DNA from: a bacterium
GTDB lineage: Bacteria; SM23-81; DAOVCL01
Reading direction: 5' to 3'
Length of the DNA stretch: 64,000 nucleotides
Assembly: GCA_029932675.1 (NCBI GenBank)
Contig: JAOZPP010000008.1
Coordinates: forward strand, 1 to 64,000
The translations under genes and the position numbers were made by a program. The notes beneath the pieces are model-generated. The model saw nothing but the letters and a program-made list of their open reading frames with translations. It was not told the DNA's origin and did not search any database. This document shows positions 31,868-45,300 of this stretch, piece after piece. The first letter of the stretch is position 1, and every line of letters begins with the position of its first letter.

Positions 31868-31868
31868 A

Positions 31869-31942
31869 TAGCGGTGCAGGGATTCGAACCCCGGACCCAC
31901 GGATTATGATTCCGCTGCTCTAACCAACTGAGCTACACCGCC
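31869..31942 (-). tRNA. tRNA with CAU anticodon (probably elongator tRNA-Met; tRNA-Ile2 not excluded); CCA not encoded
   Basis: ggcggtgtagctcagttggttagagcagcggaatCATaatccgtgggtccggggttcgaatccctgcaccgcta folds as cloverleaf (7-bp acceptor, D, anticodon, T arms). Confidence 0.95.
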
Positions 31943-31951
31943 ACTTCCTTA

Positions 31952-35155: not shown

Positions 35156-38100
35156 CTATTTTAATAGAACTATTCTACGTGTGGCAGTATAGCCACCTGT
35201 CTGCAACCTCAGAAGATAAATACCCGAGGCCAGACCACTGGCATTCCAGGTAACACTCTTGTAACCAGGGGGTTGCTTCCCATTCACCAGGGTGGCCACT
35301 TTTTCCCCTAAGATGTTGTATATCTCCAAAAGAACGTGTATCCTGCTCGTAGCTCGTGAACGATCTACGGGTAACGAGTAACGAATAACGGTAGTTGCAT
35401 TGAAGGGATTGGGATAGTTCTGGGAGAGGCTGAAGTATTGGGGAAGGTCCTCTGCCCGATTCTCGGATAGGCCTACTGGGATAAGCTGAAAGTCCACCAC
35501 CGTAGTCTCTGCCTCAATACTCTCCACTCCTGGTTGAGCTAAGCTTCCATAGCCTTCCTTAGAGACTGAGACCTTGTAGGTGTCGGGGAGCACATAGGAG
35601 ATGCTATAATAGCCATCTCCAGTAGTGGTATCCTCACCTACTACCAGTGTGTCCTTCTCAATCTGCACCAATACACCTTGTAGGGGATTCTCATCGTTAT
35701 CCTTTACCCAGCCGGCAATACAACTCCCAGGAGATTTAGCCCATACCGTGTCACTGCCCTGAAAGCTTCCTGCCCCTGTGACTGTGCCGCTAATGGTGGC
35801 AGAAGTACAGTGAAGGGGATCAATAACTCGCAGTGCAGTGAGTTGATCGAAGGTAACCATTAGATCCTCTTGCCCATCATTATCATAGTCGCCAACAACC
35901 CAGGGTTCTGGATAAGGTTGCATACTCTTACCTCCGCATCCACGCAGGGTAACCTCCGTTATATCCTCCACGGGAATCCCATCTGAGAGTTCGATATAAC
36001 ATTCAACAGGAGGAAGATCAGGGACCAAATCCAAAGTATCAGGAACGAATTGGACAACAACCTTTGCTGGACCTACCCTAAGGTGCAGGGGAATAGTGAC
36101 CAGGGAATCCAAGGGATCGTTACTGGAGACGAAAATGTTTGCATAGTAATCATCAGAGGGAAGATCAGTTACATTGAAGACCATTGCTACATCGACTCCA
36201 TCCCCAGCCTGAATGGTGCCGGAAGCAGGGCCGTAATCACACCACCTCTTATCTACATGATATCGATAAATAGGTCCGTCCCAATCAGATACAAGAATAT
36301 AATTGCCATCGTAGGTGATACCATCGTAGCAGGGTTGGTTGTGTATAGAGTTAAAGGAATTTATCTCCAGAGCACTGGTGAAGGATACATCCCACGAACG
36401 AGCAATCCTATCCGCTGATCCAATTGTCCATAGGAGACCATATGCCCAGGTGGCACCGCTGACCGCATCTCCAATACTGGCATTTACAGTCCGGACAACT
36501 ATCCCAGAAGTATCTACCTGGTATAATGTTGGGTTGTCAACCCAACTCGCCTCCGATAGCCATAAATAATTGCCATCCCAGGCAATGGCCGGTTGGGAGA
36601 TTAAGGGAGCAGCAAATGAACCAATGTTATTACCAGTGGTATCGTATTCGTAGATCGTTGAGCTATTACTCCCGATCCACAGATTGGTTCCATCGAAGGT
36701 TAAGCCATAGGGAGAACTATGAATGGCATATTGGGCTAATACATCCCCAGAGACAGAGTCCATTTTATAAAGGATTCCATCATCAAGGTCAACCCCCCAG
36801 AGATTGATGCCATCAAAGGTGAGCCCAGTGCATCCGGTAAATGGAAGCCTTAACCGACTCACTCTATTGCCAAAGTTTGCTAATAGATCATCCGTGAGGG
36901 TGTAGTGCAATGGTCCGGTCCCCCTATTGGTAATAGTGAGGGTATGAAATAAATCAATCTGTCCTGGGGACAAAGCTACATCAAAAGACGTTGGAGTAAT
37001 TCCGATGTTAGGCGGAAAATTCCCTGAACCTTTCATAAGAACCCAAATGAGGGGGTCATCTGGATCATTTGATGTAATGGATAAAACTCCAAACTGGTCA
37101 CCTAAGCTGGTGGGAGCAAACACAACCGCCACCTCTTGAGTCATGCCTACATCCAAGGTGAAAACAGTGGGCTGGACGGTAAAATGCTCATTGCTACTGG
37201 CAATACCAGTAACATCCAATACAGTGGTGCCCACATTGTGTACCAGAAGCTTCAAGGTCTTTGGGAATCCAAGACTGGTTTCTCCGAAATCGAGCAGATC
37301 AGGTTGCACACCAATGACCGTTTTTTGGGGCACGATACCTGATGAAAGCTGTGCGTAAACACAGTCACCCTGGACGGTGGGGACCGGAGGATCATCTGAT
37401 GTCACCGTATAGTAGGGTATTCTCGACCTATAATTGCCATAGTATTCAATGGAAAACTTTTTGATCTCCCCGGTTGTGCTACTTCCGCGATCATAGGCCT
37501 CCAACCAGTAGTTAGAGGAGTCTCCATCAATCAACTCGCTGATATCAAAGACGATGTCATTTGCAGGAAAAGGCCATGGACCGGCATTAGTATACTTGGG
37601 GTTGAATTCTTTCACCTGGTCAGGGTTACCTAAGTCACCTGAACCGATCCTTATCAAACATCTATTTCTTTCGGGATAATCTATGTTAAAGACTGAAACA
37701 AGTGTGGGCTGATAGCCAATGCGATCGTAATAATACATACAGTATTCAACCCTCTGCCTCATCGCTTCGTAGGACATCCACCAACATCCATCACTGTCCT
37801 CCTCTCCATTCCAGGTTGGCCCCCAGGAATTGGCGATCTTGAATGCCCCATAACGAACCTCCCCCTCCTCTACATACGATTTGCTATCATCGAATCCCAC
37901 CACCGTATTAAGATGGTTAAAAAGTGGGTTGACATAGTTATCCAATGTGGCCATCTCATGTAGCTGGTATCCATCAACACCTATTACTGGAAGGATGGTG
38001 GGCACAGATAGCAGCAAGTTCCTCAAATTCTGGATTGATGAACTCAGATCGATATACCTTATACCATCTGCCTCTGCCCGGTAAAGCGGAGCCTCCCTCC

Positions 38101-38779
38101 AGGCCGATTCTGAGGGCCAACTTGAGTGGTCATCGGGATCATTGGGCATCTCCTTCCAGGTGCAAGCACCAATTCTCTGGAGCACATCCCAGGCATCATC
38201 AGGGCTACTCCCGCAATTACATCCCCTATTGATCTGGTGATAGATGAAAGCAGGACTGAATATCTTATCCTGATAAGCACTTGATGGATGGCCGTAATAA
38301 ATCCCTCCTACCCAATCTGCTGCGGAAAGGTCCCAGTTGTGCTCCTCTGCCTCCTGAAATGTCTTCGCATAGTAAACTATAGCCCAACAGGTGCAAGAAC
38401 CTTGCATACCCTGGCTACCAATGGGCGGGAAGAACTTGCTCTGGCTGTGATCTATATGGATAACTCCCTTGCGTTGCGGATCGGTGAGGATGATTTCATC
38501 TACCATCTTGGCCTCTTGGGCTATCTCTTCCCAGCCTTTTTCAGTGGGTGGCTGCAGACCTGTGCCGTGGCCATCAATTATCTCATTGTAATTCTTCCCT
38601 TCCTTGTAGGTGCCGAAGTGTTGCTTTAGCTTTTCCAACTCATCAGGCCTGATCTTATGGGATACCTCAATGAAGTTCCTCTTGGCCAGAACAGTTGAAC
38701 CAAAGAGAAAACAACTCAAGTTGGCAACCACAGCCAAACTTATTGCCAGTTTAAACCTAAACCCTTGTGGAATAGGCAT
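35156..38779 (-). CDS. Secreted C1A papain-like peptidase with Ig-like/ASH-type repeats, carboxypeptidase-regulatory-like domain and T9SS sorting domain
   Basis: GSQGMQGSCTCWAIVYYAKTFQ (Cys), HLNTVVGFDD (His), FKIANSWGPTWNG (Asn); SLGFPKTLKLLVHNVGTTVLDVTGI; C-term NYPNPFNATTVIRYSLP...RIVLLK. Confidence 0.88.
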   Translation of the reverse strand: MPIPQGFRFKLAISLAVVANLSCFLFGSTVLAKRNFIEVSHKIRPDELEKLKQHFGTYKEGKNYNEIIDGHGTGLQPPTEKGWEEIAQEAKMVDEIILTDPQRKGVIHIDHSQSKFFPPIGSQGMQGSCTCWAIVYYAKTFQEAEEHNWDLSAADWVGGIYYGHPSSAYQDKIFSPAFIYHQINRGCNCGSSPDDAWDVLQRIGACTWKEMPNDPDDHSSWPSESAWREAPLYRAEADGIRYIDLSSSIQNLRNLLLSVPTILPVIGVDGYQLHEMATLDNYVNPLFNHLNTVVGFDDSKSYVEEGEVRYGAFKIANSWGPTWNGEEDSDGCWWMSYEAMRQRVEYCMYYYDRIGYQPTLVSVFNIDYPERNRCLIRIGSGDLGNPDQVKEFNPKYTNAGPWPFPANDIVFDISELIDGDSSNYWLEAYDRGSSTTGEIKKFSIEYYGNYRSRIPYYTVTSDDPPVPTVQGDCVYAQLSSGIVPQKTVIGVQPDLLDFGETSLGFPKTLKLLVHNVGTTVLDVTGIASSNEHFTVQPTVFTLDVGMTQEVAVVFAPTSLGDQFGVLSITSNDPDDPLIWVLMKGSGNFPPNIGITPTSFDVALSPGQIDLFHTLTITNRGTGPLHYTLTDDLLANFGNRVSRLRLPFTGCTGLTFDGINLWGVDLDDGILYKMDSVSGDVLAQYAIHSSPYGLTFDGTNLWIGSNSSTIYEYDTTGNNIGSFAAPLISQPAIAWDGNYLWLSEASWVDNPTLYQVDTSGIVVRTVNASIGDAVSGATWAYGLLWTIGSADRIARSWDVSFTSALEINSFNSIHNQPCYDGITYDGNYILVSDWDGPIYRYHVDKRWCDYGPASGTIQAGDGVDVAMVFNVTDLPSDDYYANIFVSSNDPLDSLVTIPLHLRVGPAKVVVQFVPDTLDLVPDLPPVECYIELSDGIPVEDITEVTLRGCGGKSMQPYPEPWVVGDYDNDGQEDLMVTFDQLTALRVIDPLHCTSATISGTVTGAGSFQGSDTVWAKSPGSCIAGWVKDNDENPLQGVLVQIEKDTLVVGEDTTTGDGYYSISYVLPDTYKVSVSKEGYGSLAQPGVESIEAETTVVDFQLIPVGLSENRAEDLPQYFSLSQNYPNPFNATTVIRYSLPVDRSRATSRIHVLLEIYNILGEKVATLVNGKQPPGYKSVTWNASGLASGIYLLRLQTGGYTATRRIVLLK

Positions 38780-38865: not shown

Positions 38866-38967
38866 TTTAAGCAAAAAAGGCCCTCCATCTTGCCCATGGG
38901 ACAAAAAGAGAGCCTTTAAAGGTTTTTCATTCTACCTCACCCCCTTAAAGATCAAAGGGATTTTTTT
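38866..38967 (-). ncRNA. Structured leader / sRNA candidate, copy R1
   Basis: ~100-bp near-identical copy of 42182-42282; - strand GGCTCTCTTTTTGTCCCATGGGCAAGATGGAGGGCCTTTTTT terminator-like hairpin, upstream CCCTTTGATCTTTAAGGG hairpin. Confidence 0.5.
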
Positions 38968-39110
38968 CCTTTTACACCTATGGTGGTGCAACAAAAAATA
39001 TGGAATAGGCAGCTATAGGCATTAGCTGACGAAAGGAAATTCCATAAGTCAACCACTTACGCAACCTGAAAGGTTGCGGCTACCCTATTTTGCGACTTTT
39101 GCCTAATTAT

Positions 39111-39491
39111 CACCTATCACTACTGTCCGGTTATTAGTTGAATAATGACAATTGCTTATAGCATTCGCCCTTCAGCTCTTTGCGAGCGAAATCCGTAAGC
39201 ACCTGTAAGATAGGCGATTTTTCGAAAACGGTGACGCTCAGACTCTGTAGAATTGTGTAGAGACTGAGGTCCAGATGAGCCCGTTTCTTAACAATGGCGA
39301 CGAGGACAAACACTGAGATGGCAGTCCATATTGGAGTCTTCACGGCATTTTCGGATGCGCCGTAGAAAGTGGAATGACCATAGTATACAAAGGATTTGAA
39401 ATCGATAACAGTTATTTTCGCTCGCAACTCAATTTCATCAATGCAGTTACAACAAAGTCAAGAGCAAACAATCGGACAGTAGTGATCACCT
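39111..39491 (-). mobile_element. Internally deleted IS4-type (DUF4372-like transposase) insertion remnant including CACCT target-site duplications
   Basis: 14-bp perfect IRs atcactactgtccg (39116-39129) / cggacagtagtgat (39473-39486) flanked by CACCT (39111-39115, 39487-39491); encodes transposase C-terminus. Confidence 0.85.
39134..39427 (-). pseudogene. Truncated IS4-family transposase (C-terminal fragment)
   Basis: NAVKTPIWTAISVFVLVAIVKKRAHLDLSLYTILQSLSVTVFEKSPILQVL matches the conserved C-terminus of DUF4372/IS4 transposases. Confidence 0.85.
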
Positions 39492-39497
39492 ATATAT

Positions 39498-39526
39498 AAT
39501 TTACTCCTTTGGCCTGTGGATGTCAA
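39498..39526 (-). promoter_or_regulatory. Predicted promoter (TTGACA-17-TAAATT) of the 38779/35146 unit, now adjacent to the IS remnant
   Basis: - strand CCCTTGACATCCACAGGCCAAAGGAGTAAATT; resembles the promoter-like sequence at 42296-42324. Confidence 0.6.
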
Positions 39527-39548: not shown

Positions 39549-39573
39549 GGGAGGGCCCTTTTGGACCCTCCCC
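39549..39573 (-). terminator. Terminator hairpin after the 39584 gene
   Basis: - strand ggggagggtcc-aaaa-gggccctccc followed by ttt. Confidence 0.7.
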
Positions 39574-39583
39574 TTATCGGGCC

Positions 39584-41869
39584 TTATTTCAACAGCAACA
39601 TCTTCCTGACGGCGGTAAACTCCCCAGCTTTGAGCCTATAGAAGTAAATGCCTGAGGCCATCCCTTCGGCATCCCAGGTAACTGTCTTGTACCCAGGGGT
39701 TTGCTTCTCATCCACCAGAGTGGCCACCTTTTGCGCTAAGATGTTGTATACCTCCAAACGGACGTATATCCTGCTCGTAGCTCGTGAACCCTCTTCTGCC
39801 AGACCCTTGAGGGTAGTGGGGGAGGAGTGATCTACGGGTAACGAGTAACGAATAACGGTAGTTGCATTGAACGGATTGGGGTAGTTCTGGAAGAGGGCAA
39901 ACTTCTTAGGTAGAGCGGCAACTTCTCCGTTTGGTTCAATCCCTACCCTTACGGAATCCACCACTTCAATCGTTGGTTCGTCTCTACTCCCGCCGAGCAC
40001 GCTGAACTCCGCCCTGTGATTGGGAATAGAGATGGGATAGACGCCTGGGGTTGCCCCTTCATCCACAGCAAAATCTATCTGGGCTAAGCTCTGCTCTCCC
40101 TCTTCTGGTTTGAGGTACTTGGAATTGTCGCAGTCAAAGCTAAAGAGAACCCCCAGATGAAGGACATCGTACCCCTCAAGAGAAGGTGTACCTGTGGTGT
40201 CGTAATACCACTGATGGTAATCGGCAGAGGCCGCTTTGCCGAAGTAGCGGACCTCAAAAGGTGTTAAACACTCCGGGTATAAAAGTTCATCTATCCCCAC
40301 AGCCTCCACCGGATTTGTTCCTGCCTGGGCAACCACAACTACCGATAAGGTATCACCTGGTTCTGCAGAACCCTCTGGGACAAATTTTAACCTGTCCCCC
40401 TCTTTTGGAGTATTCAGTTGGCCTTTTCTGCCGGATTGGGTAATTATTGCGTTGCCACTTTGACTATAAAAGTCAGGGATCAGCCCCTCAGGGTTACAGG
40501 GTGGGAAGCGGTCGCAGCCGAGGTTGTCATTGGTGGAATCTGTGCCACAATCAGGAAAAGGTGGTGGTGGGGATGGGCCTAAATTGTTAAGATACAAGAG
40601 CAGATACATAGGATCGGCTATCCCCACCCAACCATCGTCATTGGCATCATAGGAGTCGTCGCATCTGAAGGCTGGCTGGAAGCCGGAATACAAGTAGTTC
40701 AATAGTCCTATAACATCGCCCATGTCCACCGCAGTTGTGGCATCGTAATCCCCTCGTATAAAGCGGACGGGTTTACAGACGGAGCCATCGTCCAGCTCTG
40801 GATGGATCGTGGTATCCCCACACATCCAGTAGGTGCTATCCGGTCCAGAGATAGTGAGGAGGCAGCAATGGCCGGCAGGAATGCTGTCGGCAACTTCAAA
40901 AATGAGATCCCAGAACCGGTACATATCTGGCGGCCAATCCGGAGAACCAGTAAGGCTCGCTAATAAACCGCAGAGGATATACGCCTGATGGTAGTTGCAG
41001 GAAACATTAAAGATTGCTGGGGTAGGGATGACATCATAAAGCGTGGTATAATCATTACCCAAGGGGTCGGTGCCGGTGACCTCATAGTCTATCCCCATGC
41101 AGCGGAGACAGCTTGTATCGAAATCTGCTCTGAAGGTTATGGCATCAAGGCCATCACAGCAGACTCGGCCGTAAATAGGTACCCTAACTCTACATGGACT
41201 AATTGGTGGTGCCATAACGCTGTCCGGGATGATCATCTTGTCCTGGCAGCATTTGCCATATACCCCAATGGCCCATCTGGTGGAGCAGCTCAGGGCCACC
41301 GCGTTTGTCTGCCAGGTGGTCCCTGTATCTGAGGTGAAGAACCCATTCTCATCCGGGTCTGAACCGCAGCTATCGGAGGCCATAAATGTAAGGGCTGTAG
41401 CACTATCCCCGGAGAGGATATAAGCGAAGTAATAGGCTCCAGGGGAGAGGAGCAGATCGATACCATCGATCGTGGCAAAGACCCAGCCTGAATTTCCAGG
41501 TAGGGCAACTGGGGGTGAGGTGTATATTGTGTTAGCAGCGTCTGGTCCATCTGCATCCCCATCGTGATAGACATAGAAATTCACATAGATGCCTGGAACA
41601 TAATACCCTGGGTAATTGTAAAAGAGCGCACGCATTGTTTTCAAGGAACAGGGAAGGGTTACCTCGCATCTGTTTGCCCCACCCTCTCCAGGATGGCCTA
41701 AATCGGACCATAATTTGATCCCTGGGTAGGCGCATATGGTGTCCACTTGGGGACTGCTGAGATCACTGAGGAGAGCCATTTTGGCCCCGGTGCTGGTGGT
41801 AGAAAGGTTCAGGCCTATCAGGGGTAAGGCGAAAATCGCCAAACTGATTAAGACAAATCTCTTGGCCAT
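39584..41869 (-). CDS. Secreted dockerin / cohesin-like domain protein with T9SS sorting domain (no recognised catalytic domain)
   Basis: Signal peptide; GDYDATTAVDMGDVIGLLNYLYSG...YDANDDGWVGIADPMYLLLYLN + PPPPFPDCGTDSTNDNLGC; C-term NYPNPFNATTVIRYSLP...GIYFYRLKAGEFTAVRKMLLLK. Confidence 0.8.
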   Translation of the reverse strand: MAKRFVLISLAIFALPLIGLNLSTTSTGAKMALLSDLSSPQVDTICAYPGIKLWSDLGHPGEGGANRCEVTLPCSLKTMRALFYNYPGYYVPGIYVNFYVYHDGDADGPDAANTIYTSPPVALPGNSGWVFATIDGIDLLLSPGAYYFAYILSGDSATALTFMASDSCGSDPDENGFFTSDTGTTWQTNAVALSCSTRWAIGVYGKCCQDKMIIPDSVMAPPISPCRVRVPIYGRVCCDGLDAITFRADFDTSCLRCMGIDYEVTGTDPLGNDYTTLYDVIPTPAIFNVSCNYHQAYILCGLLASLTGSPDWPPDMYRFWDLIFEVADSIPAGHCCLLTISGPDSTYWMCGDTTIHPELDDGSVCKPVRFIRGDYDATTAVDMGDVIGLLNYLYSGFQPAFRCDDSYDANDDGWVGIADPMYLLLYLNNLGPSPPPPFPDCGTDSTNDNLGCDRFPPCNPEGLIPDFYSQSGNAIITQSGRKGQLNTPKEGDRLKFVPEGSAEPGDTLSVVVVAQAGTNPVEAVGIDELLYPECLTPFEVRYFGKAASADYHQWYYDTTGTPSLEGYDVLHLGVLFSFDCDNSKYLKPEEGEQSLAQIDFAVDEGATPGVYPISIPNHRAEFSVLGGSRDEPTIEVVDSVRVGIEPNGEVAALPKKFALFQNYPNPFNATTVIRYSLPVDHSSPTTLKGLAEEGSRATSRIYVRLEVYNILAQKVATLVDEKQTPGYKTVTWDAEGMASGIYFYRLKAGEFTAVRKMLLLK

Positions 41870-42181
41870 TTTCCCCTCCTTACACTAAAACACCTAAAGG
41901 TGATCAATCAGGTTTGATCCCCTTTGCAACAAGAGCCAGTTGAACTATCTAAAATCCGTCCCCCCTTTCCTCAACTTGATTTGGCTCTCAAATCTTAGCT
42001 TGAAGGGGAGTAATCTTTCCTTGGTTACCTGGTGGCAAAGCAATAGACAAACTTGCTGATATTGCTAATTTCGTGGCAGAACAGGGGCTCTGCCAGTTCA
42101 CTTTCGGTAATATGATTATTCCTAACATCCAGGGTGAGTGCAGATTAGACTGAACCGTCGAAAATTTATGAACAATTCGGG

Positions 42182-42282
42182 TTTAAGCAAAAAAAAGCCC
42201 TCCATCTTGCCCATAGGGCAAAAAGAGAGCCTTAAAGGTTTTCCATTCTACATCACCCCCTTAAAGTTCAAAGGGATTTTTT
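42182..42282 (-). ncRNA. Structured leader / sRNA candidate, copy R2
   Basis: - strand TCCCTTTGAACTTTAAGGGGGTGATGTAGAATGGAAAACCTTTAAGGCTCTCTTTTTGCCCTATGGGCAAGATGGAGGGCTTTTTTTT; promoter-like TTGACA just upstream. Confidence 0.5.
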
Positions 42283-42295
42283 CGACTCCGATTAT

Positions 42296-42324
42296 ATACT
42301 ACTACTTCGGGCGATGAATGTCAA
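42296..42324 (-). promoter_or_regulatory. Promoter-like sequence upstream of R2 and the 41869 gene
   Basis: - strand CCCTTGACATTCATCGCCCGAAGTAGTAGTATATAAT; -35 perfect, exact -10 ambiguous. Confidence 0.5.
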
Positions 42325-42347: not shown

Positions 42348-42375
42348 GAGGGAGGGTTCAAGAGAACCCTCCCTC
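42348..42375 (-). terminator. Hairpin/terminator after the 42384 gene
   Basis: Perfect 12-bp stem gagggagggttc..gaaccctccctc, loop of 4. Confidence 0.65.
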
Positions 42376-42383
42376 ATTTGACT

Positions 42384-45300
42384 TTATTTCAACAGGATCA
42401 TCTTTTTGACGGCGGTAAACTCCCCGGCTTTGAGCCTATAGAAGTAGATACCAGAGGCTATACTATGAGCATTCCAAGTGATGGTCTTATAGCCAGGGGT
42501 CTGTTTACCATCCACCAGGATGGCTACTTTCTGTCCCAAGACGTTGTAGACCTCCAGGCTAACCGCTGATCGTTGATCGCTGACCGCTGGAATAGTGTAA
42601 CGAATCACAGTGGTTGCATTGAAGGGATTAGGATAGTTCTGGGAGAGGCTGAACTTCTCCGGAAGCCTCTCGTTGGAGGGGGTTTCTTCCGCTTTTACTC
42701 CTGTCCAGGGGGTGACCTCGAAATCGTCAATAAACCAACCGCCATAGGTGACATAGCCGTCTGACCCAAATCGGAAACGAAACCTTACCGTCCCCGAATA
42801 ACCGGAGAGATCGAATTCGACTTTGGACCAGTCAGATTGGCCAGAGAAACAGGGGGTACCAGGATTGAAGGGGCTTGCTGGGTTGTCTATGATCAAGTAT
42901 GGATAGCCGCCGATTGGGGTTATCTGCTGCCAACCGCTTCCACTGTCTATCTCCACGATGCCACCGTCCCAGGCCCAGGTAGCATCCTCTGTCTCAGCGC
43001 TGATCCAGTGCCAGAAGGAGAGTTTTGCGTTCTGGCCCAGCCTCACCTCTGGGGAGACAAGTCCCGCATCATCAAGGTTGGAATAGCTGCTTGAGACCTT
43101 GCCGCACTTCCAACTATATCGTCCTCCAGAGGTATGGTTTCTCTCGGTGCTCAAGTGCCATTCGTCCTTGTAACCTGGGGTGACTGAGTAGTGCATCCAA
43201 TCCTCCCTCCACCAATCTTCCATAGGGTCTACATAGCCTGTGCTATCCCCTACAGAGGTATTGAAGCTGGCAGACCCCTTAAATCCCCTTTCTCCTCGGA
43301 TCTCCAGATCAAAAACGACTATATACGGGTCGATTGAACAGCCGGGTGCGACAGAGAATTCAAAGGGGAAGGTGGGGGAGACCGTACTGTCGGGAAGGGC
43401 ATTGGGATAACCTGCGCTATCCACCAAGATATTCACCCAGGAGGCACTAGTGGAAATCCTTGCCCAAAGGGAGGTCAGATCTGCCGTTCCCTGGTTGAGA
43501 AGCTCGATGTAAAGCTGCACAGTATCCCCTGGATCGGCGTTTCCATCTCCATTCCCGGAAGCGGTATCCACAATACTATAGGAATTAAAAACCAGATCGG
43601 GGGCCTTTGTGAGCAGCTCTATAATCTGGTGGCGTTGGAAACCTCCGCTGGCCGTAACATCCACCCTCAGATTGGCTCTATGCTCAGGCGGAGAGGTACC
43701 GGCGAGGGAAAGAGCAAAGGGTTGGAGGCTCGGGACCCTTGACCAGGGAGAGGCATCTGGGAAGTTGACATTCTCAGTCAAGATGTTTACCAGCGTATCT
43801 TCAGTAGAGAGGGTGGCTGATATTTGGGTGAGGCTCTGACTGCTCATATTCTCCAGAACCACCTCCATCTCTATTGTCTCCCCGGCCTCGAATTCCCCAT
43901 CCCCGTCCCCATCGCTTTGCCCTGCTTGGTCATCATCAATTGTTTGGGAAAGAAAATAGAGCCCATCAGCCTTTCTGCACAGCCCAGGCTCCCCATATAG
44001 GGTGAACTCATAAACGTTTTGGAGTTCCGTATCCCCGAAATGATCAATGTAGTTGAGCTTGGCACTCATCAGGGCATCCCCTACTTTTTCCGAATTGTTA
44101 ATTAGGTGGTGATAGAACCAGTAGTCCAAGGAATTGCAGCCTCCATCGTTTTCATCGTCCCAACCCCAGGCTCCAAAGGCGACCCTGGTGGCGACCACAA
44201 TTCCTGCAGAGCCATTTTTCAAAAGCTCCTTGCCGATGTTGTCCTCCTCAGGCACCCCGTTAGAGCAGGAAGAGCCAAAGATGATAGACGGGTAGCTGTC
44301 ATCGAGAAGGGGAACCTGATCCGTGGAGATGAAGGGAGTACCGTGAAACTCAGGAGGATCACAGGTATCCTCAGGCACTCCATCGCCGTCGTCCCAGCTC
44401 CAAATCCTCCGGTAGGAACCATACCAGTTGCCATGGCCAGACCAGTTGCAGATCCCATAATGGCCTGAATTCCAATAGGAGACCACATTCGAGGTGCAGA
44501 GGGAGTCCTCATGGGGATAGGATGAAGGGTCAAGGCCGGCATCCTCGTAGAGGCGGGTATAGCTTGAGGTTGGGGGAAGGATATCGGCTATCATCTTCTC
44601 CATCAGACAAGCCCCATCGGTTTTTAGGCTTCCCCCTCCGTTCTCATTCCCATACCAGGTTATCGCCGCCAAAAGCAGAGCGTCATCCTTCCAATCCCCT
44701 CCATCTGATTCAAACCTCACCAGCTTCTCACAGATTGTCTGCACTGTGGCCGGATCGCCCCAAGGGATTCTCCCCGGTGTTATCTCCGGGATTAAGTCGA
44801 AATCGTCCTCCCCGACCTCACCATAGTAGCCATCACCATCTGAATCCCAGTCCCCAGTTAGGTCGGCGTAGTAGTAGTCAGTCCAGGGGGAATACCAGCC
44901 AGCGGAATCATGCTCAGAGGGATAGGGGAAGCATTGCCGCATAGGGACATCCGTGATGTCTCCCACAAACAGCACCCACCTTATCCCCCACTGGGATTGG
45001 GGATACTTGTCGATGAGGAAGTTTCTTATCCTCTCGGCCAGGTCCTCCCCGGTGTAATGGGCAGAGATCCAGGAAGTGGTAACGACCTCCACCCCATAGC
45101 CTATACCCTCTTTCCAGGCAACGAGGGTGTCCACCGCGCTCTCCAGGGCGTCAGTGGTGACTATCACATACTCGTAGGTGCTTTTGGAATCCCCCATGGA
45201 AGGAGGATACCAACTTTTGATCTGGGGGTAATTGACAAACAGTTTGGAGGCCAGTTCTTCAGCCAGGATATCGGAGGCTAACCTTTTGGCCTCCTTCTCC

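Follow-up and report, generated by a model that had tools for sequence, protein, structure and literature searches.

A candidate attenuator leader before type IX cargo genes in one genus of Zixibacteria

Amino-acid operons of the trp and thr type are preceded by attenuators that consist of a promoter, a short leader open reading frame (ORF) and an intrinsic terminator placed before the gene. Multi-copy trans-acting small RNAs (sRNAs) occur in intergenic DNA in several copies, each with some 100 nt between promoter and terminator. At the pil1 locus of Streptococcus gallolyticus, translation of a leader peptide is reported to destabilise a premature stem-loop terminator (PMC3894217). A literature search for Zixibacteria together with type IX secretion returned no match, and in one for type IX secretion and attenuators, attenuation of cargo genes was apparently absent from titles and abstracts. 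We consider the leader described here, with a probability of roughly 0.5 and judging from its sequence, to be a transcription attenuator of the downstream cargo gene of the type IX secretion system (T9SS), with its own sigma-70-type promoter and intrinsic terminator.

Organization of the R2 and R1 units

The window, i.e. the whole stretch of 64,000 nt that was analysed, carries the unit R2 on its minus strand. It has a promoter at 42296-42324 (TTGACA at 42324-42319, a 17-nt spacer and TAGTAT at 42301-42296), followed about 100 nt on by the hairpin of an intrinsic terminator at 42189-42233, which has 18 bp and a 3-nt loop (GCTCTC..TTGCCC-TAT-GGGCAA..GGAGGGC) and is followed by T8 (42196-42189). 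Between the two lie an upstream hairpin (42255-42277), in which the Shine-Dalgarno stretch is paired with AUCCCUUUGA, the strong Shine-Dalgarno-like sequence (SD) AAGGGGGTGATG itself (42251-42262) and a tiny ORF, ATGGAAAACCTTTAA (42232-42246; M-E-N-L-stop), the stop of which abuts the terminator stem. An earlier note on this DNA had described the TTGACA box, both hairpins, the T8 run and a palindrome, CCTTTAAGG, beside the CCCTT..AAGGG hairpin; all of these are present on the minus strand, and the promoter-leader-terminator layout it proposed is borne out. The CCCTT..AAGGG hairpin is there as described, but taken alone it is weakly above chance, 46 of 500 shuffles being as good. The strong SD with its four-codon ORF, the insert that splits R1 and the repeat in the gap after R2 had escaped that description. 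The folding energy of the R2 RNA is -34.3 kcal/mol (z -3.2, equalled by 1 of 200 shuffles), and the folds of R1 and R2 are both very stable. A scan of the window for a TTGACA box with a strong hairpin and T run no more than 190 nt downstream gave just two units, R2 (hairpin -23.5) and the tRNA-Met gene at 31868-31943; the same scan gave 0-1 units in each of eight shuffled windows. With a single further unit found across the window, at a tRNA gene, the R2 layout is more than a chance arrangement.

A second copy, R1, the existence of which was implied by the label R2, is found at 38866-38966 on the minus strand and is 92% identical to R2. Its leader (38872-38968) contains the SD AAGGGGGTGAGG, the tiny ORF ATGAAAAACCTTTAA (38930-38916) and a terminator with T6 at 38878-38873. 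An R2-like promoter is also present upstream of R1 (repeat D4; 39498-39526, minus strand, TTGACA-17-TAAATT), separated from the leader by an insert of 512 bp (38982-39493, minus strand) flanked by copies of ATAGGTG, part of which is the remnant of an IS4-type transposase (ORF 39134-39427; 20-bp inverted ends at 39116-39135 and 39467-39486). With the insert discounted, the distance from TTGACA to the SD is 68 nt in R1, compared to 62 nt in R2. That the leader is itself a transposon end, which the earlier note had named as a refuting outcome, was rejected, as the IS4 remnant adjoins R1 and the leader lies outside it. R1 and R2 also have in common the end of the preceding gene, 78% identical over 193 nt (39564-39756 and 42364-42556), and their promoters are likewise 78% identical. 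The likeness of neighbouring T9SS-tail genes in these last 193 nt suggests duplication or exchange of tail segments.

The gene after R2 (39584-41869, minus strand), encoding a 761-aa protein with a T9SS sorting tail, starts at 41869, about 320 nt past the terminator, close to the 310 nt estimated before. This long gap is probably due to a repeat element located directly after the terminator (42072-42186, minus strand, the far end being placed by inference), which may thus inflate the distance. The repeat, which starts with CCCGAATTATTCATAAATTT, is dispersed (window 42186-42072, L004:92-206, L005:1450-1534, L003:1717-1758), has inverted ends in L004 and L005, and resembles a miniature transposable element.

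Copies in two species and their neighbouring genes

A covariance model built from R1, R2 and a third copy in this genome (L003, before mraZ) recovered two copies that had not been supplied to it, one in the same genome (G000:C93, or L016; E 1.3e-6) and one in a sister species (G001:C43; E 0.0025). The family then numbers five copies, of which this genome holds four and the sister species one, both species belonging to one Zixibacteria genus. As the model search scores part of the first-look candidates, further weak copies could be overlooked. Two additional candidates were rejected, L071 (E 0.004) resembling an ordinary terminator and L007 a chance match within coding DNA. A degenerate pattern run over the GTDB collection matched 11 stretches, among which the sister species alone held a true element. 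Pattern hits in G002, G003 and C27 represent normal gene starts or fortuitous matches. No homologues beyond the two species were found in searches of 98 and 145 relatives.

Each of the five copies has a terminator and shares the orientation of the gene that follows it. A recognisable promoter is found in four, with TTGACA 60, 62, 68 or 72 nt before a strong SD (R1 taken without its insert; 72 nt in the sister species), and L016 has none. Two pairs of the terminator stem are changed on both sides among the copies, and one further pair is so changed in the upstream, SD-sequestering hairpin, which occurs in every copy and is weakly above shuffles throughout. The search for covarying homologues, suggested earlier, yielded five copies in two species but little covariation across these five sequences in total. 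Outside the SD and the terminator the leader is poorly conserved among them, no conserved unpaired seed is found beyond the SD, and the sparing of base pairs by R1/R2 substitutions is not significant (P 0.23). Three copies, R1, R2 and that of the sister species, have a tiny ORF of 4-5 codons, with its ATG 7-9 nt past the SD core and with 0-1 nt between its stop and the terminator stem. The stop is placed likewise in 3-4% of shuffled linkers, a figure that is suggestive only, as the test was devised after the pattern had been seen. In L003 and L016 the tiny ORF is absent or badly spaced.

The next gene encodes a T9SS-type sorting tail in four of the five copies (R1, R2, L016 and the sister-species copy). 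The one after R1 (35156-38779, minus strand), a 1207-aa secreted protein with such a tail, papain-like as judged by eye alone, begins 94 nt past the terminator, and a consensus scan found no promoter between the two. Some of the proteins encoded downstream are similar to cysteine peptidases. The gene downstream in the sister species matches Peptidase_C25, and that downstream of L016, a copy located behind a ClpB-like gene, has a weak match to Peptidase_C39_2, below the cut-off. The distance from L003 to mraZ is about 545 nt, and mraZ possesses a promoter-like TTGACA of its own. This genome, of 3 Mb, has about 124 matches to Por_Secre_tail and the sister species has 78, from which a large type IX cargo set is predicted in both. 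Given about 124 tail matches in the genome, the association of leader and tail genes is unlikely to have arisen by chance, R1 and R2 not counting as independent cases. The leader is found at three of these tail genes, and no orthologues of the downstream genes bearing the leader were found in the sister species.

Attenuation and competing explanations

If the leader is an attenuator, transcription of R2 would start near 42290, most transcripts would end at about 42189 and a fraction would read on into the gene. This fraction would be set by translation of the tiny ORF that follows the strong SD, in that a ribosome at the ORF stop would mask the 5' arm of the terminator and let the polymerase pass, and such occlusion fits the geometry of ORF and stem. 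Such an attenuator would be restricted to the genus, with translation of the tiny ORF as its probable control. Counted in favour of attenuation are the recovery of copies outside the input of the model, the shared orientation of all five copies and the tail gene behind four of them, the short distance from the R1 terminator to its gene with no intervening promoter found, and the position of the ORF stop in three copies. Counted against it are the finding that no antiterminator fold exceeds shuffled arms, the ill-placed ORF in L003 and L016 and the missing promoter of the latter, the remoteness of L003 from an mraZ gene with its own promoter-like site, and the small share of tail genes that have the leader, with no leader-bearing orthologue in the sister species. 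A bolder version, in which these are genus-specific attenuators for T9SS cargo and passage of the polymerase beyond the terminator depends on nothing but translation of a 4-5-codon ORF, seems to us unlikely to hold as a whole; if true, cargo expression would track ribosome activity and not a metabolite.

The main rival is a free-standing sRNA gene of about 100 nt, present in several copies and possibly encoding a four-residue peptide, for which the neighbouring genes would be incidental. Its own promoter and strong terminator, as in the tRNA-Met unit, the very stable folds of R1 and R2 and the position of L003 relative to mraZ agree with such a gene, and we regard it as possible, if clearly less probable than attenuation. 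The location of four of five copies immediately before same-strand T9SS-tail genes, the poor conservation outside SD and terminator and the lack of an invariant unpaired seed argue against it. The sister-species copy, by keeping a near-equal promoter spacing and a T9SS-tail gene downstream, favours a leader acting in cis. Of the choice posed in the earlier note, attenuator or riboswitch on the one hand and sRNA on the other, the contest between attenuator and sRNA thus stands, with the sister-species recurrence favouring cis, and the riboswitch is not supported. A small ligand-binding aptamer switching the terminator by its folding would suit a structured leader with a clear terminator before genes. 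However, Rfam gave no match even at loose thresholds, no aptamer-like core was found in the leader copies, the short segment ahead of the terminator shows poor conservation except at the SD, and the downstream genes encode unrelated secreted proteins of no metabolic pathway. Together with the competing antiterminator not rising above shuffles and the scarce covariation, this makes a riboswitch highly improbable. Next after the sRNA ranks a relic of duplication, i.e. a promoter and gene-start segment with its terminator, copied along with T9SS-tail genes and devoid of a regulatory role. Tandem duplication is plain from the gene end and promoter common to R1 and R2, the combination of promoter and GGGGGTG SD is like that seen at ordinary gene starts of the phylum, and R1 is split by its insert. 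Yet the two leaders are more alike (92%) than promoter and coding end (78%), and the unit is met again in another species, where an unrelated tail gene follows it, and at C93, where a ClpB-like gene precedes it. A mere relic is improbable in our view.

Relation to known regulatory leaders

With the trp and thr attenuators the leader has the promoter, short ORF and intrinsic terminator in common, but runs of regulatory codons or a competing antiterminator hairpin were not found in it and the genes downstream are not biosynthetic. It resembles multi-copy sRNAs in its intergenic location, its several copies and the spacing of about 100 nt between promoter and terminator, and differs from them by the strong SD and tiny ORF, the link in cis to one gene class and the lack of a conserved seed. 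A leader that recurs before several unrelated cargo genes would offer a first handle on the control of secreted proteins in these uncultured bacteria, and would serve as a modest test case for terminators that very short ORFs control. At pil1, too, genes for surface proteins are preceded by a short leader ORF and an early stem-loop terminator, with a leader peptide that varies in length via GCAGA repeats (PMC3894217), whereas the putative ORF here, from another phylum, is repeat-free and has 4-5 codons. The proposed logic of a ribosome acting from the ORF would parallel that reported for pil1 (PMC3894217), and the leader family may be viewed as a small, uncharacterised one of a familiar kind.
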